From positions 1 through 23,772 of the IMG/VR virus record IMGVR_UViG_3300044638_003774: 23,772 nucleotides of DNA. One strand, given 5' to 3'. How positions within the stretch are numbered: position 1 is the first letter of the stretch; every line of letters starts with the position of its first letter. The notes below the pieces were generated by a model, which ran no database searches, was not told where the DNA came from, and saw nothing but the letters and a program-made list of their open reading frames with translations. Below are positions 1 to 21,349 of the stretch, piece by piece. This stretch comes from a virus. The translations under genes were made by a program, and so were the position numbers.

Positions 1-1366
1 GCAGCCCTAGCGCTGGCTCCAGCACCTTCAGCGTCTCATCCTCCAACACGTCAAGGTAGTTGAGCCAGCGGCGCAGGTCCGGGGCCCGCTGCTCCACCTC
101 CAAGCGGCACCGCTCATTCAGCAGCCGCCGGGCTACCACAGGATGCGCCTGGGCCAGCAGGTCAGGGGTGATTTCGATCAGCTTGGCGCCGGTCTGGTGC
201 ACCTCTGTCTCGATCGGCTCGCCCTCTGTGACCTCGCCGGTGTCCGGGTCAATCACTGCCTGGCGTTTCTCACGGGGTTCCTGCACCTCGGCGTTCAGCT
301 TCCAGTCCATCTCCGCATCAGGCGGCGGCAGCCGGCGCCAGTTGTCGGTGTGATCGATCAGCAGCGCCGCATCCTTCCCTGGCGCTGGCCGCAGCACCCG
401 CCCGATCAGCTGGCGCCACAGCCTGAGGCTGGCGGTGGGCCGCAAGATCTGCAGGCAGGTCGCCTCCGGCACGTCGAGGCCCTCATCAATCACAGCACAG
501 GCGCAGAGCACCGTGATCTGGCCGCGGCGGAATCGCTCGAAGATCCCCCGTCGCTCAGGTTTCGGGGTGTCGCCGTCCACCGCTTCGGCGGCGATGCCCT
601 GGTCTCGGTACTGCTCCGCCACCTGGTGCGCATGCGGAACACTCACCGCCACGGAGATGGTCCGCTCACGGTTCGGGTTGAGCTGCATCCAGTCGCGGAC
701 GATCTCGCCTTGGATCTCGACCACCTTGCGCTCCATGTCAGCGGTGGTGAAGTCGCCGCCGCGCTTGCGCATGCCCCTGGAGTCGATCCGATGCGGGGCG
801 GCGAATAGCCGGTAGCGGCACAATTTGCCGGCTGCCATCAGCTCGCCGGCCTCCGGGCCATTAAGCAGTAGGTCGAACATCTCTTCGTCGCCCAGCCCTT
901 TGCCATCGGGGCGAACCGGGGTAGCGGTCAGCCCGCCGAAGCGTCGCGGCTGCGCCGCCTCGATCACCTTGCGCCAGGTGGGGGATGGTGCGTGGTGGCA
1001 TTCATCGGCCAGCAGGGTGCAGCCCTGCAGCTGCTCCAGCAGCTTCAGTCGCCGCACCATCGTGGGCACCATGCCCACCACCACCCGGCGATCCATGCGG
1101 GGGCGGCTGCCGGCCGTCACCATGGCGATCACCTGCTGCGGCCCTAGGTGGGCCTGCAGGCTGGCTACGATCTGAGTCAGAATCTCCTCTCGGTGGCAGA
1201 TCACCACCACCTGATCGCCACGGGCAAGGGCGCGGCGGGCCAGCTCGGCGATGATCACGGTCTTGCCGGCGCCGGTGGGGGCCACCATGCAGGGCCGCCG
1301 CCCGTCAAGCATGGCCGCATCGCCGGCATCGGCGAGGTTGGTCTGGTAGTCGCGGAGGGTGAACAT
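1..1366 (-). CDS. SF2 DEAD/DEAH-type helicase, C-terminus beyond left edge
   Basis: ATP-dependent superfamily 2 helicase, probably unwinding DNA in phage replication or recombination. I translated the reverse strand from the ATG at 1366 and found no stop before the window edge, so about 455 residues are visible and the C-terminus is missing. Motifs appear in order: Walker A APTGAGKT (29-36), DECH box (121-124), motif III LTATP (146-150), motif V IDEGLDVP (293-300) and motif VI QLIGRVLRP (319-327). These define the two RecA-like lobes seen in many phage and plasmid helicases (RecQ/RadD/DEAD-like). The region after residue 340 carries no motif I recognise. The start codon lies 2 bp past the stop of the upstream nuclease gene, so both are probably one leftward operon. 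Helicase assignment is secure from the motifs. The substrate is not shown. Confidence 0.93.
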   Translation of the reverse strand, partial: MFTLRDYQTNLADAGDAAMLDGRRPCMVAPTGAGKTVIIAELARRALARGDQVVVICHREEILTQIVASLQAHLGPQQVIAMVTAGSRPRMDRRVVVGMVPTMVRRLKLLEQLQGCTLLADECHHAPSPTWRKVIEAAQPRRFGGLTATPVRPDGKGLGDEEMFDLLLNGPEAGELMAAGKLCRYRLFAAPHRIDSRGMRKRGGDFTTADMERKVVEIQGEIVRDWMQLNPNRERTISVAVSVPHAHQVAEQYRDQGIAAEAVDGDTPKPERRGIFERFRRGQITVLCACAVIDEGLDVPEATCLQILRPTASLRLWRQLIGRVLRPAPGKDAALLIDHTDNWRRLPPPDAEMDWKLNAEVQEPREKRQAVIDPDTGEVTEGEPIETEVHQTGAKLIEITPDLLAQAHPVVARRLLNERCRLEVEQRAPDLRRWLNYLDVLEDETLKVLEPALGL

Positions 1367-1368
1367 GT

Positions 1369-2019
1369 CTACTTGCTCCCTTGGTTGCGGCCGAACTCTT
1401 TACGCGTGTAGTTGACGCGCTCGCCATCCATCAACCAAATATCATCCGCAAAGGTAATTCTTAAATGCTTTGCATCGTTGGATCCACGGGCAATCCTGGA
1501 GAAAAACATTTCCCCGACCCCAAAGCCAGCGACAAACCTCCTTACCAAATAAGCCAATGACTCTCCGTGTACTTCTGCCAGCGTTGGAGTTCTAGGGTTC
1601 ATGTCAACTTTTTCGCAGATCAGCTCAGTAAGGCCTGGGCAAGCAACGACAGGAAGCTGTCCATAATTCTTCCAGCTTGTCTGCCTGTAATCCACGCACT
1701 GCCGCATGAAGGCGCCGATTTCGGCCGTGCGCATTTTCCCGCCCTTGAACTCAACGCCTAAACAAGTTTCGTAGCGGTCAACTGATTTGTGCAGTTGAAC
1801 GACCGCATCAATGCGCACCTTTTTGTGCTTTTGCGCTTCGCAGTCAGAATGGAACGCATAATCACAAACGCCGGTCACTTCTGTTTCAACCACGCCCAGC
1901 TGCTGCAGCGCTGGCATGAAACGGTTTTTGACCTGCGCCTCTCGGTCGGGGTACAGCTCCCAGTAGTAGCGGCTGTCCGTTTGCCTGGCTGTCGTGCGCT
2001 GACGCGCTTCCCAGTCCAT
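1369..2019 (-). CDS. PD-(D/E)XK-like nuclease-fold protein
   Basis: 216-residue soluble protein. The centre reads RIDAVV (69-74) followed by GVEFKGG (88-94), giving Asp71, Glu90 and Lys92. This D-x18-E-x-K spacing is typical of the PD-(D/E)XK nuclease core, with hydrophobic beta-strand residues around each. Many Cys, Tyr and basic residues follow, but no separate domain is recognisable. The gene is visibly richer in A+T than its neighbours, suggesting a different origin. It is first in a leftward operon with the SF2 helicase, whose ATG begins 2 bp after its stop. The start at 2019 is the ATG inside a CATATG that is mirrored at the start of the divergent gene at 2057. A helicase/nuclease pair could act in replication-fork processing, host DNA degradation or inter-phage conflict. 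None of these is proven. The fold call is motif-based, so moderate. Confidence 0.7.
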   Translation of the reverse strand: MDWEARQRTTARQTDSRYYWELYPDREAQVKNRFMPALQQLGVVETEVTGVCDYAFHSDCEAQKHKKVRIDAVVQLHKSVDRYETCLGVEFKGGKMRTAEIGAFMRQCVDYRQTSWKNYGQLPVVACPGLTELICEKVDMNPRTPTLAEVHGESLAYLVRRFVAGFGVGEMFFSRIARGSNDAKHLRITFADDIWLMDGERVNYTRKEFGRNQGSK

Positions 2020-2056
2020 ATGCTAAGGTTCTACAAACACTGCGCAACCCTACCAT
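2020..2056. promoter_or_regulatory. Divergent promoter/operator region with imperfect dyad
   Basis: A 37-bp gap separates the leftward nuclease-helicase operon from the rightward replication genes. TAAGGTT (2024-2030) and AACCCTA (2046-2052) form an imperfect inverted repeat, 6 of 7 pairs, with a 15-bp spacer. Each half reads as a TAnnnT-type -10 element on its own strand (TAAGGT on plus, TAGGGT on minus). The whole is flanked by CATATG at both start codons. Both transcripts would have very short leaders. I infer a shared operator, plausibly bound by the ribbon-helix-helix protein encoded just downstream. Confidence 0.5.
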
Positions 2057-2221
2057 ATGCCGCCCGCAGCCCGCAGCACCCCCCTCAACGTCATGGTCAA
2101 GCCATGGCACGTCGAGGCCCTTGACCGCATCGCCGCCGCCACAGCCGGGGTTGACACCCGCAGCGCCGTTGTCCGCATGCTGATTGAGCAGGCAGACGCG
2201 CAGCTGAAAGCGAAGGCCTGA
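2057..2221 (+). CDS. Ribbon-helix-helix (CopG/Arc-type) DNA-binding protein
   Basis: A 54-residue protein. Residues 10-16 read LNVMVKP, an N-terminal beta-strand with alternating hydrophobic residues. They are followed by helix ALDRIAAATAG and then VDTRSAVVRMLIEQADAQL, the turn and second helix typical of CopG/Arc/MetJ ribbon-helix-helix dimers. It ends 5 bp before the primase-helicase ATG and is co-transcribed with it. The likely role is transcriptional autoregulation through the inverted repeat in 2020-2056, or a copy-number or replication control function. That role is inferred from fold and position only. The start is the ATG of CATATG, and no clear Shine-Dalgarno sequence precedes it, in line with a very short leader. 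Confidence 0.7.
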   Translation: MPPAARSTPLNVMVKPWHVEALDRIAAATAGVDTRSAVVRMLIEQADAQLKAKA

Positions 2222-2226
2222 CCCTG

Positions 2227-4839
2227 ATGCAGCCACTCGATCACGCCGGGGCGCCCCGCTTCGATGGCGCTGCGGCATTGTCCTTCCTGCAGGCCCTCGG
2301 CGCTGAGCCGTCGGCAGTGCACTACCGCGCCATCCACTGGGACAAGAATCACGAGCCCAAGGGCGAGCGGGCTGTGCACCTGGCACCCACTTTCCAACCA
2401 CGGGGGGCCCGCCTGGAGCAGCTACAGCAGGCCGGCTATCGGCTGTACTGGCTGCCCAATGGCGGGCCGAACGACGCCGACGTGAAGGCCTGCAGCTTCC
2501 TGTTCGTCGAGTGGGATGAGCAGCCGATGGAGTGGCAGGTGGGGGCATGGCAAGCCCTCGGGCTGCCAGAGCCGACCGTACTGCTGGCCACTGGCGGCAA
2601 GTCCGTCCATGCCTACTGGCGCCTCAGTGAGCCCATCACCCCTGAGCGCTGGCGCCCGCTGATTCAGCGGCTGATCGCCTACTGCAAATCGGACCCCACC
2701 TGCAAAAACCCCTCGCGACTGATGCGCTTGGCGGGCAGCAGCTACATCCACAAGAGCGACGACCTGGGCCCCGATGGCCAGAGCATCGGCGGCAGCCTGG
2801 GCGCTCACCCCGCCCGCATGATCCGCCACAGCCCAGCGGCGATCTACTCGGCGGACGTGTTCGAGGAGCGGCTGCCGGAGCTGCCGAAACCTGAACCGCC
2901 AGCACCGGCGCCAGCCCCAGCGGCACCAACCCGGAGCGCAGCAGCAGATCAGCCGCGCACCTATGAGGAGCTGGAGCGGCTGGTCAGCAGCTACCCGCAG
3001 ATCCTGGCCAAGAACGGCCAACGCGAGGAGGCGCTGCGGCTGGTGTGTGGTTTGGCGCGTTGCATGGAGTTGATCGGCAAGGGAAAGCTCGACGCGATCG
3101 CCCTGGCCAGCCGCTACCACCCCCAGGCGGCCGACACGTTCGAGCAGGTGGACCGCTGGAAGTTCGATCAGTTCGACGCCGGCAGCTTCATCAAGCAATG
3201 CAAGGGTGCCGGGGTGGACGTGAAGCGCCACGACATCCCCAAGCCGCCGCCGCCAACCCCACCGCTGAACGGCGAGCAGTTCATCCCGCCTGATGCGCCG
3301 GTGAAGCCCGCAGCGGCCGATCCATGGCAGACGGAGCCCCTCGACGATGAAGACGCCGCTGCTGCCCGCAGCGACCTGCTGGCGGAGCTGCAGAGCTTCC
3401 GCGATGCCGGGGAATTGGCCGCGGTCGTCACTCCTCAGCTGCTGTTCCCGCCGGATACGGCCACCAAGCTGCTGAGCTACGCCGAAGAGCAGCAGCTTCC
3501 CGTACGTGGCTTCTACCTGCCGATCTTCACCACGGTGGCATCGATCATCGGCAACCGTGCCCACTGCGTCCCACGCTCAGGCGATGAGGTGCGCGGCATC
3601 GCCGTGCTGTGGGGCATGTCCATCGGTGGCGTGAGCGCCGGCAAGTCGCCCATCACCGCACCCGCCATCGAACGGCCGCTGGTGGCCTGGCACGCCGCAG
3701 AGCGGGAGAAGCATGAGGCTGCCATCAAAGAGTGGAACCGCGGCAAGGCCAAGGCCGAGGAGGCCGAGAAGCGGCGCCGCAATGGCGACGACGCCGGCGG
3801 CTCTGAAGATCCGGTCGGCGACTTTCTGGCAGAAAACCCGCAGCCCGAGCGGCGCTACATCATCTCCACCGACACCACCATCGAGAAGCTGGAGATCAAC
3901 CTGCTCAGCGCCGAGACGCCAGGCCACCTGTCGTTTCACGATGAGCTCTCTGGCTGGTTCGCCAACCTCTGCCGTGAGCGTGGCGGCAAGAGTGATCGCC
4001 CGAAGTGGCTCTCGATCGGCTCTGGGTCGTCCCTGATGACTGATCGGGTTAACCGCACCGAGGTGCTCATCCAGAACCCGCGCTGCTCGCTGTTCGGCAA
4101 CCTGCAGCCGGCCCGCATCGCTGGTCTATGGGAGGCAGACGTGAAGGCCTGCCAGGGCGTGCCGGATGCCGATGGCCTGTGGGCCCGGTTCCACATGGTG
4201 CAGCTCCCTGAGTGGGACTACCGCTATCGCCCCACCACGGTGCATCTCACCCCGGTGCTATCCAGCCTCTATAAGGCCATTGACGCCACCGCGGCGCGGC
4301 TGCCGATGCCGGCGCCCGGCAAGAGCTGCGAGATCCTGCTGGCGGAAGATGCCATCCCCCTGTGGACCCAGTGGGTGGATGACCTGCTGGAGATGCGCAG
4401 GGCGCGCACTCTGCAGGAAGATAAGGGCTACATCATCAAGCTGCGCGGAACCACGCTGACCCTGGCCCTGCTCATCCACGCCATCCGCTGCGGCGCCAGC
4501 GGCATTCGCATGGATGGCCCGATCAGCGCCGACACCCTGATGGCAGCGATCAGCTTCGCTGGCATGCTGATCGTCGAGCGTGATCGGGTGCTGTGCGCCG
4601 TGCGGGATGCCGATGCCACCGGCAAGGTCAAGGAGCTGCTCGCCCGTGGTCAGGAGTGGCGCCGCGCCAATGGCCCTATCCCTGTGCCCCTCGATCAGCT
4701 GCGCAAGTGGTGCCTGCCGCAGAAGCGCATGAAGGCTGCCGAGCGCCGCGCCTGGCTGGAGCAGGTCGTTAGCGATGCCCCGGACATGGGAGAGCTCAGG
4801 GAGGTGCAGCGGTCGCTGCAGTGGCTGCCGCCTGCCTGA
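2227..4839 (+). CDS. Phage primase-helicase (AEP-like primase plus DUF3987-like ATPase)
   Basis: An 870-residue replication protein. The N-terminal domain (about 1-210) has the three blocks of the archaeo-eukaryotic/RepB primase type: FVEWDE (93-98, metal-binding acidic residues), GGKSVHAYW (123-131, the sxH block) and SRLMRLAGS (163-171). A proline/alanine-rich linker follows (about 217-240), then a helical segment that includes a PriCT-like region around 245-335, then a second Pro-rich linker. The C-terminal half resembles DUF3987: a Walker A-like GGVSAGKSP (467-475), a charged coiled-coil insertion (490-520) and a Walker B-like FHDELSG (570-576). It should prime and unwind DNA at the phage origin. 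The gene is followed immediately by the iteron-rich region at 4864-5156, its likely target. A GAAGG sequence precedes the ATG. The domain calls are from motifs, and the order matches other phage and plasmid primase-helicases. Confidence 0.85.
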   Translation: MQPLDHAGAPRFDGAAALSFLQALGAEPSAVHYRAIHWDKNHEPKGERAVHLAPTFQPRGARLEQLQQAGYRLYWLPNGGPNDADVKACSFLFVEWDEQPMEWQVGAWQALGLPEPTVLLATGGKSVHAYWRLSEPITPERWRPLIQRLIAYCKSDPTCKNPSRLMRLAGSSYIHKSDDLGPDGQSIGGSLGAHPARMIRHSPAAIYSADVFEERLPELPKPEPPAPAPAPAAPTRSAAADQPRTYEELERLVSSYPQILAKNGQREEALRLVCGLARCMELIGKGKLDAIALASRYHPQAADTFEQVDRWKFDQFDAGSFIKQCKGAGVDVKRHDIPKPPPPTPPLNGEQFIPPDAPVKPAAADPWQTEPLDDEDAAAARSDLLAELQSFRDAGELAAVVTPQLLFPPDTATKLLSYAEEQQLPVRGFYLPIFTTVASIIGNRAHCVPRSGDEVRGIAVLWGMSIGGVSAGKSPITAPAIERPLVAWHAAEREKHEAAIKEWNRGKAKAEEAEKRRRNGDDAGGSEDPVGDFLAENPQPERRYIISTDTTIEKLEINLLSAETPGHLSFHDELSGWFANLCRERGGKSDRPKWLSIGSGSSLMTDRVNRTEVLIQNPRCSLFGNLQPARIAGLWEADVKACQGVPDADGLWARFHMVQLPEWDYRYRPTTVHLTPVLSSLYKAIDATAARLPMPAPGKSCEILLAEDAIPLWTQWVDDLLEMRRARTLQEDKGYIIKLRGTTLTLALLIHAIRCGASGIRMDGPISADTLMAAISFAGMLIVERDRVLCAVRDADATGKVKELLARGQEWRRANGPIPVPLDQLRKWCLPQKRMKAAERRAWLEQVVSDAPDMGELREVQRSLQWLPPA

Positions 4840-4842
4840 AGC

Positions 4843-4863
4843 GCCCTCACCCCGACTGAGGGC
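4843..4863 (+). terminator. Stem-loop after primase-helicase, no T-tract
   Basis: GCCCTCA (4843-4849) and TGAGGGC (4857-4863) are perfect 7-bp inverted arms with a 7-nt loop, starting 4 nt after the stop codon. No run of T follows, and the repeat array begins at once. It could be a weak or factor-dependent terminator, an mRNA 3'-end stabiliser, or part of the origin. Confidence 0.35.
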
Positions 4864-5156
4864 ATTCCACCCGGCATTCCACCCCGTTCACACCACTCCA
4901 CACCGGGCGGTGTGAACGCAATCCATTGGAATGACTGGTGTTAGGGGCAATTCCACCCATTCCACCCACTTACGGGGAAAGAAGGGAGAGAGGGCCCTGG
5001 AGGTTAAGAAAAAATAAAGAGAGAGAATATAAAACTAATTCTCTCCCTATGGGGTGAAATGGGTGGAATAGGGCAAGGCGCCTGTCGTGGACAGGATTCT
5101 ATTTCACACCGCCAGGGTTGAAATGGGTTGAAATGGGGTGGAATCGCTTTCAACCC
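4864..5156. other. Candidate replication origin: bidirectional iteron array with AT-rich core
   Basis: This non-coding stretch is dominated by a 9-10 bp element. Forward copies ATTCCACCC lie at 4864-4872, 4876-4884, 4950-4958 and 4959-4967, with degenerate forward copies at 4886-4894, 4895-4904, 5101-5110 and 5148-5156. Reverse copies lie at 5052-5060 (GGGTGAAAT), 5061-5069 (GGGTGGAAT), 5115-5124 and 5125-5134 (both GGGTTGAAAT) and 5135-5144 (GGGGTGGAAT). The pair 4950-4967 mirrors 5052-5069 with 17 of 18 matching. Between them is an AT-rich core (5004-5040). Perfect hairpins are CGTTCACACC/GGTGTGAACG (4885-4894/4909-4918), GAGAGAAT/ATTCTCTC (5021-5028/5038-5045) and CCTGTC/GACAGG (5081-5086/5090-5095). 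Iterons plus a melting region beside a primase-helicase gene is the usual origin layout. The origin role is inference. Confidence 0.65.
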
Positions 5157-5196
5157 TCCGAAATCCCGTTGTTTGGTGCTGATGGGTGCATCTGCC

Positions 5197-8533: not shown

Positions 8534-8586
8534 CACTTAAGCAAGGCCTTAGCCTTAACTTAAATGCACGCAGGCCTGTTTAAGTG
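8534..8586. promoter_or_regulatory. Inverted repeat overlapping the TerS start codon
   Basis: The arm starting CACTTAAGCAAGGCC (8534-8548) and the arm GGCCTGTTTAAGTG (8573-8586) are inverse copies with a single indel and mismatch. The right arm ends exactly on the GTG start of terS. The 24-nt interior holds GCCTTA-type repeats (8546-8558). It could be a TerS operator, a translation-limiting stem or the TerS-binding part of cos. Confidence 0.45.
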
Positions 8587-9162
8587 CTGATCAGTTTCAG
8601 CGATTTCGCCCGATTGAAAGGTGTTTCTGCGCCAGCGGTGACGATTGCGGCAAAAAACCGAATCAAAGATGCGATCGTCGAAAACGGCGGCAAGCGCATG
8701 CTCGACCGTGACAAAGCGCTGGATCTTTGGGACCGCAACACCAAGCGCAACGGATCAGAAAAGCTGTCACCCGAGGCAAGGGCCCGCGCCCGCCGACCAC
8801 TGAAGTCTGACAACGGATCGCCGGCTGGCGAGATACTCAAGCCCACCCCTGACCAGCTCAAGACGCTGATCATGGGATTGCCTGAGGATCAGATCCCAGG
8901 ACTCGATGTCAGCCGAGAGCGCAAAGAGCACTACCTGGCCGAGGTCGCACGCATGGATGCGCTGGCCAAGCGCGGCGAGCTGGTGCCAAATGATGGCGTG
9001 ACGAAAGAGGCCAGCCGCTTGGGCCGCCAGGTCCGCGACCTGCTGCTGATCATCCCTGGCCGCAATGCGGCAAGCCTGGCGACGATGCAGGACGCCGAGG
9101 CGATCAAAGCTCTGCTGGAGGCCGAGATTCACACGGCGCTGCGAGGGCTGGCAAATGACTGA
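8584..9162 (+). CDS. terS: Terminase small subunit (Nu1-like)
   Basis: 192 residues. The N-terminus SFSDFARLKGVSAPAVTIAAKNRIKDAIV and then RMLDRDKALDLWDRN form the winged helix-turn-helix of the Nu1 family, which recognises the packaging site. Residues 60-95 are a charged, Pro-rich linker. The C-terminal part YLAEVARMDALAKRGELV ... RQVRDLLLIIPGRNAASLA is the helical oligomerisation and large-subunit-binding region typical of phage small terminases. The GTG start directly follows an in-frame TAA, and later starts would remove the recognition domain. The start lies in the right arm of an inverted repeat and lacks a Shine-Dalgarno sequence, hinting at controlled translation. It overlaps terL by 8 bp, so the subunits are made together. 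Confidence 0.85.
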   Translation: MLISFSDFARLKGVSAPAVTIAAKNRIKDAIVENGGKRMLDRDKALDLWDRNTKRNGSEKLSPEARARARRPLKSDNGSPAGEILKPTPDQLKTLIMGLPEDQIPGLDVSRERKEHYLAEVARMDALAKRGELVPNDGVTKEASRLGRQVRDLLLIIPGRNAASLATMQDAEAIKALLEAEIHTALRGLAND

Positions 9163-11020
9163 CGGTGCCGCGCTCTACCGCCAGGCGTTCATCGAGGCGC
9201 TGCAGCCGCCGCTCGACCTGACCGTCAGCGAGTGGGCGGATCAGAACCGGATCCTGACCCGCCGCAGCAGCTCTGAGCCTGGCGGCTGGCGCACTGACCG
9301 GGCGCCGTATCTGCGCGAGCCGATGGATCTGCTCAGCCCGAAGGAGAAGCGCATCAAGCGGGTGGTGCTGATCTTCGGCAGCCAGACCGGCAAGACGGAG
9401 GTGGGCCTGAACTGGCTAGGCCGCACGATCGCGCTGGACCCGTCGCCGTTCCTGGCGATGTTCCCGACCGAGAGCTTTGCCAAGCGGCAGATCCGCCAGC
9501 GCCTCACGCCGCTATTCACCGACTCCCCGGCGGTGGCGGCCAAGTCGATCAGCACAAAGTCCAGGGACGCGGCGAACGCGATGTTCCTAAAGGAGTTTCA
9601 GGGCGACATGCTGGTGAGCATCATCGGCGGCAACAGCGGCAGCGCTGCGCAGGGCATGCCGGCGCAGAACGTGTGGGCCGATGAGGTGTCATCCCTGCCG
9701 CTGGAGATGGATGACAAGGGCGACCCGCTGGAGAATGCCGAGGCCCGCCAGACCAACTTCCCCGACCGCAAGGCGCTGGTCACCTCCACCCCCGGCAGCC
9801 GCGGCGCCTGCAGGATCACCAGCGAGTTCGAGGTGCGCAGCGACCGCCGCCGCTACGGCGCCCTGATGCCCTGCTGCGGCGGCCATGCCGTGATCGAGTG
9901 GCCGCACATGGTATGGGATAAGCGCGACGGCGAGGTGTGGTGCCAATGCCCGCTATGCAATGAACGGGTGGCGCAGCACCACAAGACCGCCATGCTGGCC
10001 GGCGGGATCTGGACACCTACGGCCAAGGGCGACGGCGAGACGGCGGGCTTTCACCTGCCGGGCTGGTATGCGCCGTATGGCTGGCTGAGCTGGGAGAAGA
10101 TCCGCGATGAGTTCCTGCGCGCCAAGGCGGACCCGCTGCTGCTCAAGGGCTGGGTCAACAAGCGGGCCGCTGAGGCATGGGAGGATGAGAGCCTGGCGAA
10201 GGTGAGCGCCGATGGCTTGATGGCCCGCGTCGGCGGCTACGGCCACGGCACTTGCCCGGATGGCGTACTTGCGGTGCTGATGGCCGTGGACGTGCAGGAC
10301 ACCTGGCTGGAGGTGTCTGTGTGGGGCTACGGCCGCGGCAAGCCTGAGCAGGCCTGGCGGATCTGGCACCAGAAGATCGAGGGCGATCCGGGGCAGGATC
10401 ACGTCTGGGATCAGGTGACGACGATCCGCGAGATCGAATGGCCGCACGCAAACGGCGGCAAACTGAAGGCGATCCACTGCGCGGTTGACACCGGCGGCCA
10501 CTACACCAGTGAGGGGTATGACTACTGCCGCCGGTACGCCAAAGAGGGTGTGGTGGCTATCAAGGGCAGCAGCCAAAAGAACGCGCCGCCGCTCGGCAAA
10601 GGCTCAAAGCAGGACGTGACCTTCAGGGGCAAGACCGTGAAGGGTGGCGTCACGCTCTACATGATCGGCACGCACGCAATCAAGCGGACCATCTACAGCC
10701 GCCTCAAGATTGAAGAGCCCGGCGACGGCTACATCAACTTCGACGACGCCACCACGGAAGACTACCTGCAGGGCCTCACCTGTGAGCGGCTGCAACCGCG
10801 CTACGTGAAAGGGTTTCAAGTCTTGGAATGGGTTAAGCCCAGCGGCGCCCGCAACGAACCGCTTGACCTGAAGGTGTACTGCCTAGCGATGCTGGAGCTG
10901 CTCAAGCGCCGCTACAACCGTCAAACCATGTGGGACCAGCTGGCGGCACAACTGGCGGCCTCCGTAGCCTCTAAGGGAGAGCCCGCGCCGCGCCGGGCAC
11001 GATCATTCAAGGTGATATGA
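9155..11020 (+). CDS. terL: Terminase large subunit (GpA family)
   Basis: 621-residue packaging motor and nuclease. The ATPase half contains GSQTGKTE (75-82, Walker A), VWADEV (173-178, Walker B) and TSTPG (210-214, coupling motif). A Cys cluster PCC (239-241) with CQCPLC (263-268) is the zinc-binding element seen in GpA proteins. The nuclease half has AVDVQ (Asp379) and AVDTGGH (Asp445) as metal ligands. The length is close to lambda GpA (641). The start at 9155 overlaps the end of terS. An upstream in-frame start at 9065 lies inside terS and is not needed. The stop overlaps the next ATG (ATGA). With TerS it should cut at cos and translocate DNA through the portal. Confidence 0.96.
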   Translation: MTDGAALYRQAFIEALQPPLDLTVSEWADQNRILTRRSSSEPGGWRTDRAPYLREPMDLLSPKEKRIKRVVLIFGSQTGKTEVGLNWLGRTIALDPSPFLAMFPTESFAKRQIRQRLTPLFTDSPAVAAKSISTKSRDAANAMFLKEFQGDMLVSIIGGNSGSAAQGMPAQNVWADEVSSLPLEMDDKGDPLENAEARQTNFPDRKALVTSTPGSRGACRITSEFEVRSDRRRYGALMPCCGGHAVIEWPHMVWDKRDGEVWCQCPLCNERVAQHHKTAMLAGGIWTPTAKGDGETAGFHLPGWYAPYGWLSWEKIRDEFLRAKADPLLLKGWVNKRAAEAWEDESLAKVSADGLMARVGGYGHGTCPDGVLAVLMAVDVQDTWLEVSVWGYGRGKPEQAWRIWHQKIEGDPGQDHVWDQVTTIREIEWPHANGGKLKAIHCAVDTGGHYTSEGYDYCRRYAKEGVVAIKGSSQKNAPPLGKGSKQDVTFRGKTVKGGVTLYMIGTHAIKRTIYSRLKIEEPGDGYINFDDATTEDYLQGLTCERLQPRYVKGFQVLEWVKPSGARNEPLDLKVYCLAMLELLKRRYNRQTMWDQLAAQLAASVASKGEPAPRRARSFKVI

Positions 11021-11583
11021 CCCAGCCGGCCGAGCTCTACCAATCTGACGCGGTCTCCTGGATTGAGCTGCGCGTTCACCCTGACGCCACTGCCGTTCGC
11101 GTGTGGTTTCGCGCTGCAGCAGCTGGCGCCGGTATCGAGGCAGTGGCCACCGACACTGACGACGGCTGGAAGGTGGAGCTGAGCGCCGCCACGACGGCCA
11201 CCATGGCAGCTGGCAGCTGGGAGCTGCAGATTGTCAGCACCGTCAACGGCGCACCGCTCACCACTGGTCGCGGCAGCCTGACCGTCCGCAAGAGCCTGGC
11301 CTTCAGTGGCACCCCTGGGGCATTTGATGATCGCAGCCAGGCGCAGAAAGACCTAGAGGCGGTTGAAGAGGCGATCCGCGCCCTGGCCACGGGTGCGGTT
11401 GAGTATCAGATCGGCTCTTTAGGTTCCGGCGGCAGGAAAGTTCGCCGGGTGGACCTGCCAGATCTAATCATGTGGCGCGACCGCCTCAAGGCCGAGGTCG
11501 CCCGTGAAAAACGCGCCGAGATGATCGCGCAGGGCCTCGGCGATCCGCGCCGGCTTTATGTGCGCTTCACGGGGGTGAGCTGA
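11017..11583 (+). CDS. gpW-like head-tail connector fused to an N-terminal beta domain
   Basis: 188 residues. The C-terminal part (about 106-188), with KDLEAVEEAIRALATG, then VEYQIGS, RKVRRVDLPDLIMWRDRLKAE and DPRRLYVRF, follows the whole length of lambda gpW: a helix, a beta-hairpin and a second helix. gpW binds the portal ring and closes the filled head. The N-terminal part (about 12-92) is beta-rich (WIELRV, VRVWFRA, DGWKVEL, GSWELQIV, GRGSLTV), an immunoglobulin-like sandwich of the kind seen in tail-fibre or baseplate N-termini. Classic gpW is only about 68 residues, so this is a fusion. It overlaps terL by ATGA and the portal by TGATG. The gpW part is well supported, the beta domain is described by pattern only. 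Confidence 0.72.
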   Translation: MTQPAELYQSDAVSWIELRVHPDATAVRVWFRAAAAGAGIEAVATDTDDGWKVELSAATTATMAAGSWELQIVSTVNGAPLTTGRGSLTVRKSLAFSGTPGAFDDRSQAQKDLEAVEEAIRALATGAVEYQIGSLGSGGRKVRRVDLPDLIMWRDRLKAEVAREKRAEMIAQGLGDPRRLYVRFTGVS

Positions 11584-13127
11584 TGGGTGTTCGATCCTGG
11601 CTGCAGCGGCAGATCCTGACCACCCGGCACGGCCGACAGCAGGGCCAGCGGATGTTTGAGGGCGCCCGGCGTAACCGGCTGCTCCACGACTTGGTGGCAC
11701 CTACCACCTCCGCCGATGCCGAGCTGCGCGTCAGCCTGGCGGTGCTGCGCGACCGCTGCCATCAGCTGGTCAGGGACAACCCCTATGCCCGCCAGGCCAA
11801 GCGGACCACTCAGATCAACGTGGTGGGGCCGCGTGGGATCCAGATGCAGGGGCAGGTGATGCGCCCTAACGGCACGGAAAAGGACGTGCGCCGCAACCGG
11901 CTGCTGGAGGAAGCATGGCGCCGCTGGTGCCGGCCAGACACTTGCGACGTGGCGGGCCGGCTGTCGTTCCACGGCTTCGAGATGATGGTGGCCGGCAGCC
12001 TGCCGGAGTCGGGCGAATGCCTGATCAGGATCGTGCGGCAGCCGATGGGGCAGGGCCGCACCCCGCTGGCGCTGGAGCTGATCGAGGCGCACCAGCTAGA
12101 TGAGGACAAATCAGGCGTGAGCGACCGCGCTGGCCACGAATGGCGGCTGGGTGTCGAGATCAACCAGTGGGGCCGCCCGACCCGGTATGCAATTTTGACC
12201 CGCCACCCTGGCGATGTGGAGCTCGGCCTGAACCGCCGCGGCGTGGAGCGGAAGCACGTCCTAGTGCCGGCGGCGGACATGATCCATGTGTTCCTGCCGG
12301 AGCGGATCGGGCAGAACCGGGGCGTGCCGTGGTTGGCGTCGGTGATCACGACGGTGCATGGCCTGTCGGAATACGAAAAGGCGCATCTGACCAGGAAGCG
12401 CGTCCAGGCAGCATCGCTGGGATGGATCCGCACCCCAGACGGTGAGCTGCAGGGTGATGAGGTCAAAAACGGCCAGCAACTGTTCAACACTGAGCCCGGT
12501 AGCTGGAACATCCTCGACCCTGGCCAGGAACCGGTGCCGCCGAACTTCGGGCCGGATGATGGCCAATACCAAGCTGTGGTCAAGAATCTCACCCGGCGGT
12601 TTGCGGCTGGGTTCGGATGCAGCTACGCCACGATCAGCAAGGATTTTTCGGACACCAACTACAGCAGCATGCGCACCAGCGTGCTGGAGGATCGCGACCA
12701 CTGGCGGGTGGTGCAGAGCGCGATCATTGAGGTGTTCCACCAGCGCGTATTTGAAGAGTGGCTACGCGCTGCGATGCTGGCGGGTGAATTGCCGTCGCCT
12801 GCATTCTCCGATTATTGGACTCGCCCAGAAAGGTATAACGCTCCACGCTGGCAGGCTAGATCATGGGACTGGGTGGACCCAGTTAAGGATGTTTCCGCCA
12901 TGGAAAAAGCCAAGGCGATGCTACTGAAATCTCACAGCGAGCTGATAACTGAATACAGCGGCGAGCAGTTTGAGCAGGTGATGGCGCAAATCGCCATGGA
13001 GAACGAGCTGAAAGAATCACTGGGCCTGATGCCCACCGTCGAGCAACCGCCTGAGCCCGTGGTGGAGCCGCCTGAGCCGGAAGAGGATGACGACGAAGAC
13101 GAAGACGCCGCAGATGATGTAGAATAG
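11583..13127 (+). CDS. Portal protein (lambda GpB family)
   Basis: 514 residues. The protein forms the dodecameric ring at one capsid vertex through which DNA enters. The family landmarks are present: R-x-x-A-R near the start (MFEGARRNRL), RDNPYARQAKRTTQINVVGPRG, a GESGECLIR-like core (LPESGECLIR), LELIEAHQLD, VLVPAADMIHVF, GVPWLASVI, NYSSMRTSVLEDRDHW and SWDWVDPVKD. The C-terminus is strongly acidic (EEDDDEDEDAADD), as often in portals with C-terminal cleavage or charge tails. The length is near lambda GpB (533). It starts in a TGATG overlap with the connector gene. It is separated from the protease-capsid gene by an inserted HNH endonuclease. Confidence 0.95.
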   Translation: MGVRSWLQRQILTTRHGRQQGQRMFEGARRNRLLHDLVAPTTSADAELRVSLAVLRDRCHQLVRDNPYARQAKRTTQINVVGPRGIQMQGQVMRPNGTEKDVRRNRLLEEAWRRWCRPDTCDVAGRLSFHGFEMMVAGSLPESGECLIRIVRQPMGQGRTPLALELIEAHQLDEDKSGVSDRAGHEWRLGVEINQWGRPTRYAILTRHPGDVELGLNRRGVERKHVLVPAADMIHVFLPERIGQNRGVPWLASVITTVHGLSEYEKAHLTRKRVQAASLGWIRTPDGELQGDEVKNGQQLFNTEPGSWNILDPGQEPVPPNFGPDDGQYQAVVKNLTRRFAAGFGCSYATISKDFSDTNYSSMRTSVLEDRDHWRVVQSAIIEVFHQRVFEEWLRAAMLAGELPSPAFSDYWTRPERYNAPRWQARSWDWVDPVKDVSAMEKAKAMLLKSHSELITEYSGEQFEQVMAQIAMENELKESLGLMPTVEQPPEPVVEPPEPEEDDDEDEDAADDVE

Positions 13128-13185: not shown

Positions 13186-14061
13186 ATGGCATCAGTATCG
13201 CAGACTGGGCGGCAAAAGGCCAAGCCGTTCACTGTTCAAGACCAAATCACGGCAGAAGTGGCCGCCGCGTGTGGCGTTGGCATTCGGGAGATCGGCAGGA
13301 TAGTCGGATGGACTCACACCCGAGTCAGGACCCACCTGTTGCCGACGGTTGCCGAGAAAAAGCGTGTTGCTCAACGTGCCTATTATGCGCAAAATGCGGA
13401 CGCTTGTCGCCAATTCGCCCGTCGCTACTATCGATTAAACATTGAATATCGGCGCAAGCAAGATCGGTTATACTACGCTAGAAACGCCGAGAAGTGTCGG
13501 CAATATAAGCGTCAAAAACGGCTGGAAAACCCCACTGAAAACCGCGAAAGATGCCGTCGTTACTACGAAGCCAATCGCGACAGGATGCGTGAATGTTGCC
13601 GCCGGTATCGAGAGGTAAACCCAGAAAAGCATCGTGAATACTGCCGCCAGTGGCGCAAAGTCAACCTTGATAAAGAACGTCAAGCCAGCCGCCGCCGTTC
13701 TGCGTGGAAGCGCGCAGCAAGGAGACGGGCACTGCATCCTGTCACGCAGCAGCAAATCGACGCCCGCTTCGCGCTGTGGAGCAACCGCTGTGCATTCTGC
13801 GGAGTGGATGCCGGGCATGAACGCAACCGCAGGTACGAACGGCTGACCGTTGAGCACGTGCTGGCCCTGACCAAGGGCGGACTCGATGAGGCGAGCAACA
13901 TCATCCCGGCCTGCTCCACGTGCAACACCAGCAAGAAAGCCTCGCCGGTTGAGGCTTGGTACCGCCGCCAACCGTGGTTCACGGATCAACGCTGGCGGAA
14001 GATTAAACGCCATTGCCCTGCCGCCGTGGTGGGTCAACTTCCGTTGGCGCTGGCGGCGTAG
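13186..14061 (+). CDS. HNH endonuclease with seven 15-residue repeats (mobile insertion)
   Basis: 291 residues. An N-terminal helix-turn-helix-like segment (16-52, TAEVAAACGVGIREIGRIVGW) is followed by seven consecutive 15-residue repeats (64-168) with consensus R-x-Y-Y-x-x-N-x-E-K-x-R-x-x-C/A, rich in Arg, Tyr and Cys. Then come a basic stretch and an HNH domain: Cys202/Cys205, Glu223-His224, Asn238, Cys243/Cys246 and Asn247. The two Cys pairs bind a structural zinc. The gene interrupts the normal portal-capsid order and is richer in A+T and less codon-biased than its neighbours, consistent with a free-standing homing endonuclease. It could instead be a packaging-linked HNH, but those usually lie beside terminase. 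The nuclease fold is secure, the mobility inferred. Confidence 0.88.
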   Translation: MASVSQTGRQKAKPFTVQDQITAEVAAACGVGIREIGRIVGWTHTRVRTHLLPTVAEKKRVAQRAYYAQNADACRQFARRYYRLNIEYRRKQDRLYYARNAEKCRQYKRQKRLENPTENRERCRRYYEANRDRMRECCRRYREVNPEKHREYCRQWRKVNLDKERQASRRRSAWKRAARRRALHPVTQQQIDARFALWSNRCAFCGVDAGHERNRRYERLTVEHVLALTKGGLDEASNIIPACSTCNTSKKASPVEAWYRRQPWFTDQRWRKIKRHCPAAVVGQLPLALAA

Positions 14062-20000: not shown

Positions 20001-20594
20001 GATCTGCCTAGCAGTGTGTTTTCAGTATCTGGCAGCCCGGTGACGAGCTCTGGCACGCTAACCGGTGCATTCCAGACGCAGGCGGTTGGCGCGGTGTTTG
20101 CTGGCCCGGCCAGTGGCGCTGCGGCAGCACCGACGTTCCGAGCGTTGACGGCTGGTGATGTGAGCTTGGGCACCAGTAGCACGCCGCAGTTTGCAGGGCT
20201 GGGCCTGGGTACGGCTGCCGTGACGGGATGGGAACTGACGGTAGGCGGTGCGACCTGCCAGGTGCGGAATACGGTGACGGCGGTAAGCAATGTTTACACG
20301 TTGGATGTGCAGGCTGCTAATGAGTTTGTCACTGCTGCAGCGATTGCAGCGGCAACTACAATTAACCTGTCGAATCTTAATACGATTCCGAGCGGGTATT
20401 TGTGGCGGGGGGTGCTGAGTTTTCAGTATACATCAGGTACGATTTCATGGTTTACGGGAAACAGTGGTTACACGGTGAAGTGGGATGGTGGAACGGCAAT
20501 GACACCCACTGCCAGCGAGGTTGAGAAGGTTGTCATTGAAGTTGTTGGTGGTGGCACGACGATTGAGATTGCACCACTTAAGGGGAGGGCGTGA
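17052..20594 (+). CDS. Large tail fibre/tailspike-like adsorption protein
   Basis: 1180 residues. Residues 1-45 (TISGLPDATGPLTGAERVPIDD) are the usual virion-attachment start of many fibres. Residues 127-375 (IYVSLEGNDFNNGTSDAEPLRTLRAAS ... DVVFVAPGTYVE) begin a right-handed parallel beta-helix. About 393-466 is a CVAHGLSAGDQVVFSATQG ... GTYEF domain seen in phage fibres. Two related domains follow, each with EYVxGGTxTxGGT, YNKxTGV and a LxFIC ending (about 520-580 and 635-700). The C-terminus has GGGTSTFLRADGTFAAPP and FAGPASGAAAAPTFRALTAGD, standard fibre repeats. It should bind host surface glycans. Codon choice (GCG, ACG, GTG) differs from the capsid genes (GCC, ACC). The gene's position between head-completion and tail genes is atypical. 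Confidence 0.82.
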   Translation: MTQPTTISGLPDATGPLTGAERVPIDDVVAGVTKDCSTLQIAQTLPDAASSNRGAMTAAQALKLAGIAAGATANATDAQLRDRATHTGEQAISTITGLAAALLGKENVGVAAAAVAQLVTQLRNSRKIYVSLEGNDFNNGTSDAEPLRTLRAASLAALPGDVVFVAPGTYVESILPIRWKYDVTIFGSGLRSTIVQGAAGQEFNDIFKVDSGFWCWGVSFAGHQADETRQAWAIDFDELADNTARGAVGLGAFILKSPYIQNCTSITAEDDGGLAGSQSTGNTGGGIRVDGGKCALNSPIRSMVVDSYTQVNLGGPGCLVVNDGYAQLVSFFGTFCTYHVRTESGGQVNLSGGGTTDFGVYGLMADGYSSRPLFTGSARVAGYGAVRLQKTVTIDVATNVFGCVAHGLSAGDQVVFSATQGTLPTGLTANTIYFVISSGLTADAFQVSTTSGGGALDVTGTASGTYEFVRQGATQLDVIGFGANRLGRQIKYPSAGSLGSPGNAVQVTARGGSTPGSTFTVTLASSTIGHEYVGGGTVTVGGTGYPITSASYNKSTGVTVLTATGYAPTIGASVTLAGLSFICDSSSRPNAGQLMFPQLVFPRNATTEVAEAKTFAYTRVSNYVLTYTEATSPSGPEHEYVSGGTATIGGTDYGVAGAVYNKTTGVVTLTVKTILPAGNGNVTVNGLRFICPTSAYIVTSSVPINASGVAVANTDPTRAGYRVVFYSGLNGGLKDAVTAGQVLDFRNRSQISAPSHTFEFVGAGTNYDALPWNGGVPVPANAIVETNNGKVYSSNTNEKGDFKVGSQFEVDGTTGSVTINTDQFNLSGLNFIGPFSRNGGISTVGEQLREISNNTSLIASTGAPDGNTAPTQFAVKTYADNKFLQNVTVTAGLPLTITDTSTQDGQGYWTRTRRLELSVNTANGLARLDSSGLIPLSLLSLFTSTAAGLVPASGGGTSTFLRADGTFAAPPAGPDGTVTSVALDLPSSVFSVSGSPVTSSGTLTGAFQTQAVGAVFAGPASGAAAAPTFRALTAGDVSLGTSSTPQFAGLGLGTAAVTGWELTVGGATCQVRNTVTAVSNVYTLDVQAANEFVTAAAIAAATTINLSNLNTIPSGYLWRGVLSFQYTSGTISWFTGNSGYTVKWDGGTAMTPTASEVEKVVIEVVGGGTTIEIAPLKGRA

Positions 20595-20596
20595 TC

Positions 20597-21349
20597 ATGC
20601 TGGGACGTAGTGCATTGCTGGCAGCAACGAATAGTGGCGGGCCGCCGGGCTTCGGCACAAAGTACACCAACCCTGCGACGTTGCCTGCAGGCGAGGGCAA
20701 CGGCGTTGCATTCTCCCCCGCTGGTGATGCTCTTGCAGTGGCTCATCAAAGTTCTTCCTACATCACCGCCTATCCGTGGTCTGCATCAGGATTTGGCACA
20801 AAGTACACCAACCCTGCGACGTTGCCTACAGGCGCCGGCAGGGGCGTTGCATTCTCCCCCGCTGGTAATTCTATCGCGGTGGCTCACACCTCCTCCCCCT
20901 ACATCACCGCCTATCCATGGTCTACATCAGGCTTCGGCACGAAATACACCAATCCTGCGACGTTGCCTGCAAGCACCGGCGCGGGCGTTGCATTTTCACC
21001 CGCTGGTGATGCTCTTGCAGTGGCTCACATCTCCTCCCCCTACATCACCGCCTATCCGTGGTCGGTATCAGGCTTCGGCACGAAATACACCAACCCTGCG
21101 ACGTTGCCTACAGGCACCGGCAGGGGCGTTGCATTCTCCCCCGCTGGTGATGCGATTGCAGTGGGTCATGACAACAACCCCTACATCACCGCCTATCCGT
21201 GGTCTGCATCAGGATTTGGCACAAAGTACACCAACCCTGCAACGTTGCCTGCAGGCGAGGGCAACGGCGTTGCATTTTCACCGGCTGGTGATGCTCTTGC
21301 AGTGGCTCACGCCTCCTCCCTCATCACCGTCTACCCCTGGAACTCCTAA
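20597..21349 (+). CDS. Five-repeat beta-propeller protein, probable receptor-binding factor
   Basis: 250 residues. After a short lead of 17 residues, the whole protein is five tandem 47-residue units (last one 45), each GFGTKYTNPATLP-x-GxGxGVAFSPAGD-ALAVAH-xSS-YITAYPWS. The GVAFSPAGDxLAVAH and ITAYPW strands match WD40-like propeller blades. Five units of 47 residues is the arrangement of the sugar-binding five-bladed propeller tachylectin-2, so a closed five-bladed lectin-like ring is plausible. Start choice: AGGGGAGGG (20581-20589) lies 7 nt before the ATG at 20597 but only 1 nt before the GTG at 20591, so 20597 is preferred. Neighbours are a fibre and a fibre-assembly protein. The receptor role is inferred. 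Confidence 0.75.
   Translation: MLGRSALLAATNSGGPPGFGTKYTNPATLPAGEGNGVAFSPAGDALAVAHQSSSYITAYPWSASGFGTKYTNPATLPTGAGRGVAFSPAGNSIAVAHTSSPYITAYPWSTSGFGTKYTNPATLPASTGAGVAFSPAGDALAVAHISSPYITAYPWSVSGFGTKYTNPATLPTGTGRGVAFSPAGDAIAVGHDNNPYITAYPWSASGFGTKYTNPATLPAGEGNGVAFSPAGDALAVAHASSLITVYPWNS
20648..21346 (+). repeat. Five tandem 141-bp repeats inside the propeller gene
   Basis: Units begin at 20648, 20789, 20930, 21071 and 21212, the last being 6 bp shorter. Each starts GGNTTYGGCACRAARTACACC. Units 1 and 5 share long identical stretches, including the GCAGGCGAGGGCAACGGC segment that units 2-4 lack. Near-identity at the DNA level points to recent duplication or recombination within the gene. The unit length is a multiple of three, so loss or gain keeps the frame. 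Confidence 0.92.

Follow-up and report, generated by a model that had tools for sequence, protein, structure and literature searches.

What is the function of a short word, ATTCCACCC, that is repeated in both orientations directly behind a primase-helicase gene in a phage genome? The question is raised by IMG/VR virus record IMGVR_UViG_3300044638_003774, which was taken whole and whose 23,772 bases are referred to here as the window. The array of repeats begins 25 bp past the stop codon at 4839 of the gene for a protein in which a PrimPol-like N-terminus is fused to a predicted helicase of the DUF3987 family. We propose, with a probability of roughly 85%, that the array serves the phage as its replication origin and that the words are read by the helicase half of the adjacent protein. 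An iteron-type origin served by the primase-helicase directly upstream, with two-way initiator assembly, had already been put forward in the initial annotation of the sequence, and on the comparative evidence it is the best-supported reading.

Close relatives of the window differ from it by the exchange of a single cassette. The window aligned to locus L002 at 93.8% identity over 1201-3317 and at 92.6% from 5151 onwards, whereas the interval separating these stretches did not match at the nucleotide level, so that the exchanged part comprises the helicase half together with the whole array. The flanking DNA is ~93-97% identical to that of the window in L002 and L004, and 87-90% identical in the cleanly aligning parts of L003. 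In all three loci the helicase is 43% identical to that of the window and the array is composed of TTTGGGACA, with the order of orientations, +++ − ++ / −− + −−−, unchanged. Among 22 related loci, three primase modules (archaeo-eukaryotic primase, AEP, 1 to 3) and two helicase types (HelA and HelB) have been shuffled into the combinations AEP1-HelA, AEP1-HelB, AEP2-HelA, AEP2-HelB and AEP3-HelA. The word matched the helicase type in 22 of the 22, ATTCCACCC (word A) being found with HelA and TTTGGGACA (word B) with HelB, and it tracked neither the primase nor the small protein encoded upstream. Recombination has parted the helicase from the primase and the array from the downstream gene, but it has never parted the helicase from the array in these loci. 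Helicase type and word are therefore inherited jointly; the genes on either side are shared between the word types, which leaves no other neighbour that varies with the word.

The same comparison bears on whether the array could be an operator, at which a transcription regulator such as the 2057-2221 protein binds the repeats and controls the downstream genes. Repeated words in both orientations are known from operators, and this small, putatively ribbon-helix-helix protein is encoded in the same operon. However, copies of it that are 93-100% identical adjoin the entirely different word B in L002, L075 and L083, which means that it does not set the word. Furthermore, the flanking genes on both sides are common to both word types, and arrays also follow DUF3987 genes on plasmids having other neighbours. 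We therefore consider an operator improbable. Both proteins had initially been named as candidate binders of the repeats; the primase-helicase is now favoured, via its DUF3987 half, while the small protein is disfavoured and, with no Pfam family found for it, is possibly the repressor of the operon.

The arrangement of the sites is more regular than the two clusters around an AT-rich core that had been described. Twelve sites, in the order +++ − ++ / AT-rich core / −− + −−−, form six mirror pairs about 5009.5, and the centres of all six pairs fall at 5009.5-5010.5; this count takes in degenerate copies that were placed by alignment to L001 and L008. The same mirror centres, within ~0.5 bp, were computed for relatives (7719.5-7720 in L001, 3120-3120.5 in L004 and 4939.5-4940 in L146), and in L002-L004 a word-B single site occupies the place in the blueprint equivalent to 5103-5110. 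The twelve-site dyad is thus conserved while the words differ. Self-complementarity about the dyad was 28-41% for the spacers against 63-75% for the words, and since the spacers are not palindromic the symmetry resides in the placement of the sites, as a bound protein would predict. AT content peaks at 74% in a 50-bp stretch that falls almost wholly in the core, compared with 49% for the array as a whole. The mirroring of the two inner pairs and the three tandem copies on the right had been described correctly (Table 1). The coordinates of the array also hold, except that its right end had been set too far, at 5156: the final copy, TTTCAACCC (5148-5156), sits on the right-hand boundary of the cassette, mostly in flank common to the word-B loci, and was therefore left out, so that the array proper ends at 5144.

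The word is enriched at this place. Allowing up to one mismatch, we counted 10 copies of ATTCCACCC in the window, of which 7 fall within 4864-5144; shuffles of the window averaged 4.67 copies and never exceeded 9. The best 9-mer of the region 3' of the gene has 10 sites there, whereas shuffled sequence never held more than 4, and no other 400-bp stretch of the first 12 kb scored as high as the array. When two mismatches were allowed, 14 matches were found in 4840-5170, two of them double counts due to overlap, which makes the earlier figure of at least thirteen copies roughly fair.

The inner inverted arms on their own might instead form a stem-loop origin, as proposed for plasmid pRN1. With arms of 18 nt, 84 nt between them and a position just 3' of the primase-helicase gene, they resemble pRN1, in which the stem measures 21 nt and the loop 58 nt (PMC4234260). 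The order of parts is also like that of pRN1-type replicons (ORF56/ORF904), where a small regulator gene and a gene for a protein with PrimPol, helicase and winged-helix parts are followed by an essential 3' region (PMC4234260). The pRN1 region is, however, a stem-loop with explicitly no iteron structure, whereas in the window 8 of the 12 sites lie outside the stem, the tandem trios contribute nothing to a hairpin and the mismatch between 5052-5060 and 4959-4967 is uncompensated. Moreover, all copies switch their word jointly between relatives. The layout and the joint word changes would appear to fit iterons better than a pRN1-type stem-loop, which we regard as very unlikely to be the origin even if the stem itself is possible. 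Least credible of all is a packaging (cos/pac) or recombination site, since, although this is a phage genome and phages bear repeated packaging sites, the array stands next to the primase-helicase rather than the terminase (8584-11020) and is exchanged together with the helicase. Arrays resembling it also occur 3' of DUF3987 genes on the non-phage plasmids L088 and L162, where a part in packaging would be improbable.

Of a further 21 viral DUF3987 loci, 16 had a 3' region that outscored all shuffles, and new words were found there. In most loci this region was also the best iteron stretch of the entire locus. All 4096 possible strings of twelve orientations were then scored for each array with identical broad spacings. 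The spacing ranges were fixed after inspection of the loci, so that the ranks of the blueprint are slightly favoured, but the orientation was not fitted per locus. The string +++−++−−+−−− ranked 1 to 5 of the 4096 in 18 loci. Their words number about a dozen, of which several resemble one another and about ten had played no part in finding the blueprint. Its carriers are DUF3987 loci of phages and prophages. The blueprint did not fit in L100, L088, L090, L162 or EcCICFT073, all of which have other two-sided layouts; looser two-sided arrays of this kind stand 3' of DUF3987 on the cyanobacterial plasmids L088 and L162 and the Bartonella plasmid L090. Two-sided 3' arrays were present in 4 of the 28 testable DUF3987 loci of cyanobacterial genomes, and the loci without a 3' array include most cyanobacterial chromosomal loci, the Nostoc plasmids L086 and L087, Rhodovastum L091, phage DSL-LC05 and Allocoleopsis L161. 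An origin of this type is thus not common to every DUF3987 protein.

In some loci the repeats lie elsewhere. In two viral relatives the array is not next to the gene: the strongest array of L149, which fits the blueprint, is displaced to 0.7-1.2 kb past the DUF3987 stop codon, and that of L153 to 1.5-2 kb past it, while the Allocoleopsis plasmid pMIC7113.05 (L161) has twelve ATCCCTAAG-like repeats within the DUF3987 coding sequence, ~0.4-0.8 kb before the stop. A scan of all viral contigs with a tandem-word pattern returned 62 stretches, with clusters only in close relatives; most of the remaining stretches hold two or three copies and are chance-like.

The predicted architecture of the primase-helicase also speaks for the proposed origin. 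DUF3987 (PF13148), a predicted helicase domain of primase fusions (PMC5862659), is the only Pfam family matched (E=2.4e-45, residues 429-789, 155.7 bits against a curated cut-off of 27). The N-terminus, without a Pfam match, is 41% identical to the DNA primase/polymerase of cyanophage S-2L, and the alternative primase module in L008 matches Prim-Pol and PriCT_2. In the cyanobacterial loci L123 and L100 the helicase is preceded by a Toprim-like rather than a PrimPol-like N-terminus, and L123 nevertheless carries the full blueprint; the type of primase thus seems irrelevant to the layout of the array. Structural results are predictions from modest alignments, the model of the helicase half (pLDDT, the predicted local distance difference test score, 78) having been built from 22 sequences. 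The models of the window protein contain an MCM-type AAA+ fold followed by a winged helix: the AAA+ part matched MCM helicases (best Z 15.9, 3.7-3.9 A over ~260 residues), and the last 82 residues matched winged helices that include those of CMG/MCM and MCM8 (Z ~7-8). Searching the solved structures by sequence, with a profile of the helicase, gave no match.

We infer from these features, and from the analogy with the pathogenicity islands of Staphylococcus aureus (SaPI) and the phage-inducible chromosomal islands (PICI), that the DUF3987 half would act as initiator. The C-terminal domain of SaPI Rep helicases binds iterons directly 3' of their own gene (PMC7581432), and the pri-rep-ori region of an E. 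coli PICI, of similar general layout, replicates when cloned with its initiator (PMC6092414). In the phage, the winged-helix end of the helicase half would bind the twelve words, one subunit per word, a ring of six MCM-like subunits would assemble on each arm, the AT-rich core between the rings would melt, and the fused primase would start synthesis in both directions. The six sites per arm hint at two hexamers, which is suggestive but not proof, and we hold the odds of a double ring of helicase subunits to be about even. Equally balanced is our view that these loci represent a hitherto undescribed class of origin in which twelve sites, exactly mirrored and assigned singly to the subunits of two opposed MCM-like hexamers, form a fixed blueprint, while the word has been replaced about a dozen times across phages and prophages together with the DUF3987 helicase.

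Origins of this general kind are already known. As in SaPIs, for example SaPIbov1, and PICIs, the array immediately follows the initiator gene and its two iteron sets surround an AT-rich region (PMC6092414); the two-sided symmetry is therefore not as unusual as first supposed. Site by site, the comparison was made with EcCICFT073, the PICI of E. coli CFT073, whose protein matches D5_N and DUF5906 in Pfam. The region 3' of its primase gene (L155:7010-7236) holds a mirror-symmetric array of the word CTGTCTACC with 10 of 11 detected sites paired, but the order, ++ − +++ / −− + −−, is the reverse nesting of the window blueprint, which ranked 34 there; a third inner-right copy may be degenerate. 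Furthermore, PICIs are satellites, whereas the window record has terminase, portal and capsid genes, and its helicase belongs to DUF3987 and not to DUF927 or D5/Primase_Cterm. Thus, by analogy, the array would work like a PICI or SaPI origin, yet the element is not a PICI, since it has its own packaging and capsid genes, another helicase family and another layout. Cch of the staphylococcal cassette chromosome SCCmec, a DUF927 protein, is among the structural matches to the DUF3987 model (5dgk), and Cch2 binds direct repeats 3' of its own gene via its C-terminal domain (PMC7581432). The putative Cch2 origin, however, has three iterons, a twelve-site dyad is not described for it, and replication of SCC is unproven in vivo. 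The AEP-DUF3987 fusions of the PrimQH and All3500 families likewise have a predicted helicase and a C-terminal winged helix, with suspected origin recognition (PMC5862659). Within the open-access literature we found no paper linking DUF3987 to iterons or an origin. We judge the novel part to be the fixed blueprint with exchangeable words, the kind of origin itself being known already.

Several observations weigh against the proposed origin. Since the array adjoins the helicase gene, linkage alone accounts for part of their being inherited together; the primase part, however, lies just as near to the helicase and does recombine. The window itself has degenerate copies at two of its outer-left sites and at both reversed single sites; its symmetry appears only after such sites, located by homology, are included, and template-free mirror tests were weak for the window (p 0.34 when positions were drawn at random). 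In 24 of the 28 cyanobacterial-genome loci no clear two-sided 3' array was found. Lastly, a change of GC skew at the array, proposed as a check in the initial annotation, did not appear: neither the window nor any of three longer relatives had an inflection there.

Table 1. Features of the window, with positions in the 23,772-base record.
Feature	Position	Strand	Remark
Small open reading frame, 54 residues	2057-2221	+	Ribbon-helix-helix-like (family guessed by eye); directly 5' of primase-helicase gene
Primase-helicase, putative initiator, 870 residues	2227-4839	+	Predicted: AEP/PrimPol-like N-terminus, MCM-like DUF3987 helicase, C-terminal winged helix
Exchanged cassette (helicase half and whole array)	3318-5150	+	From nucleotide comparison with L002
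C-terminal winged-helix domain, candidate word reader	4591-4836	+	H-H-H-E-E model, pLDDT 76.7
Extra word copy outside dyad	4864-4872	+	Exact ATTCCACCC
Outer-left trio	4876-4904	+	4876-4884, 4887-4894, 4896-4904; two copies degenerate, align to intact copies in L001
Left reversed single site, GGTGTGAA	4909-4916	−	Exact reverse complement of 5103-5110, mirror-placed about 5009.5
Inner-left pair, two copies of ATTCCACCC	4950-4967	+	
AT-rich core, putative melting site	4968-5051		Contains dyad centre 5009.5
Inner-right pair	5052-5069	−	Mirrors 4950-4967 at 17 of 18 positions
Right reversed single site, TTCACACC	5103-5110	+	Kept in L001 and L008
Outer-right trio	5115-5144	−	10-bp spacing
Terminase	8584-11020		
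Portal	11583-13127		

The remaining genes mark the window as coming from a tailed phage, with small and large terminase subunits (a terminase gene at 9065-11020 among them), portal and minor tail protein. The terminase is nearest to those of Synechococcus phages S-CBS3 and S-CBS1 (60-62%), and a cyanobacterial host is therefore likely. These nearest isolated phages were discarded as a direct test of the array since their replication protein is RepA-like and not DUF3987; in S-CBS1, GTGAGAAAC/GTGCGAAAC repeats are clustered within the RepA-like helicase gene (L157:28717-29004), possibly as an in-gene origin. Elsewhere in the window, an HNH endonuclease gene with a charged, repetitive N-terminus (13186-14061) lies between the portal and capsid genes and possibly encodes a homing endonuclease, and a tail-region protein (20591-21349) contains ~5 near-identical 45-residue repeats (FGTKYTNPATLPAG...) with weak beta-propeller/WD40 likeness.

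Compared with the PICI origins, the blueprint is stricter, and a similar layout occurs in full phages, and more loosely on plasmids, with a different helicase family. Exchanged cassettes, and a single blueprint carrying about a dozen words, would together amount to a ready-made code of origin reading by an initiator, and the natural swaps of helicase plus array offer a view on the evolution of new compatible origins. With two sets of six sites, the loading of a ring helicase in opposed pairs without a separate loader becomes testable in a small phage protein.
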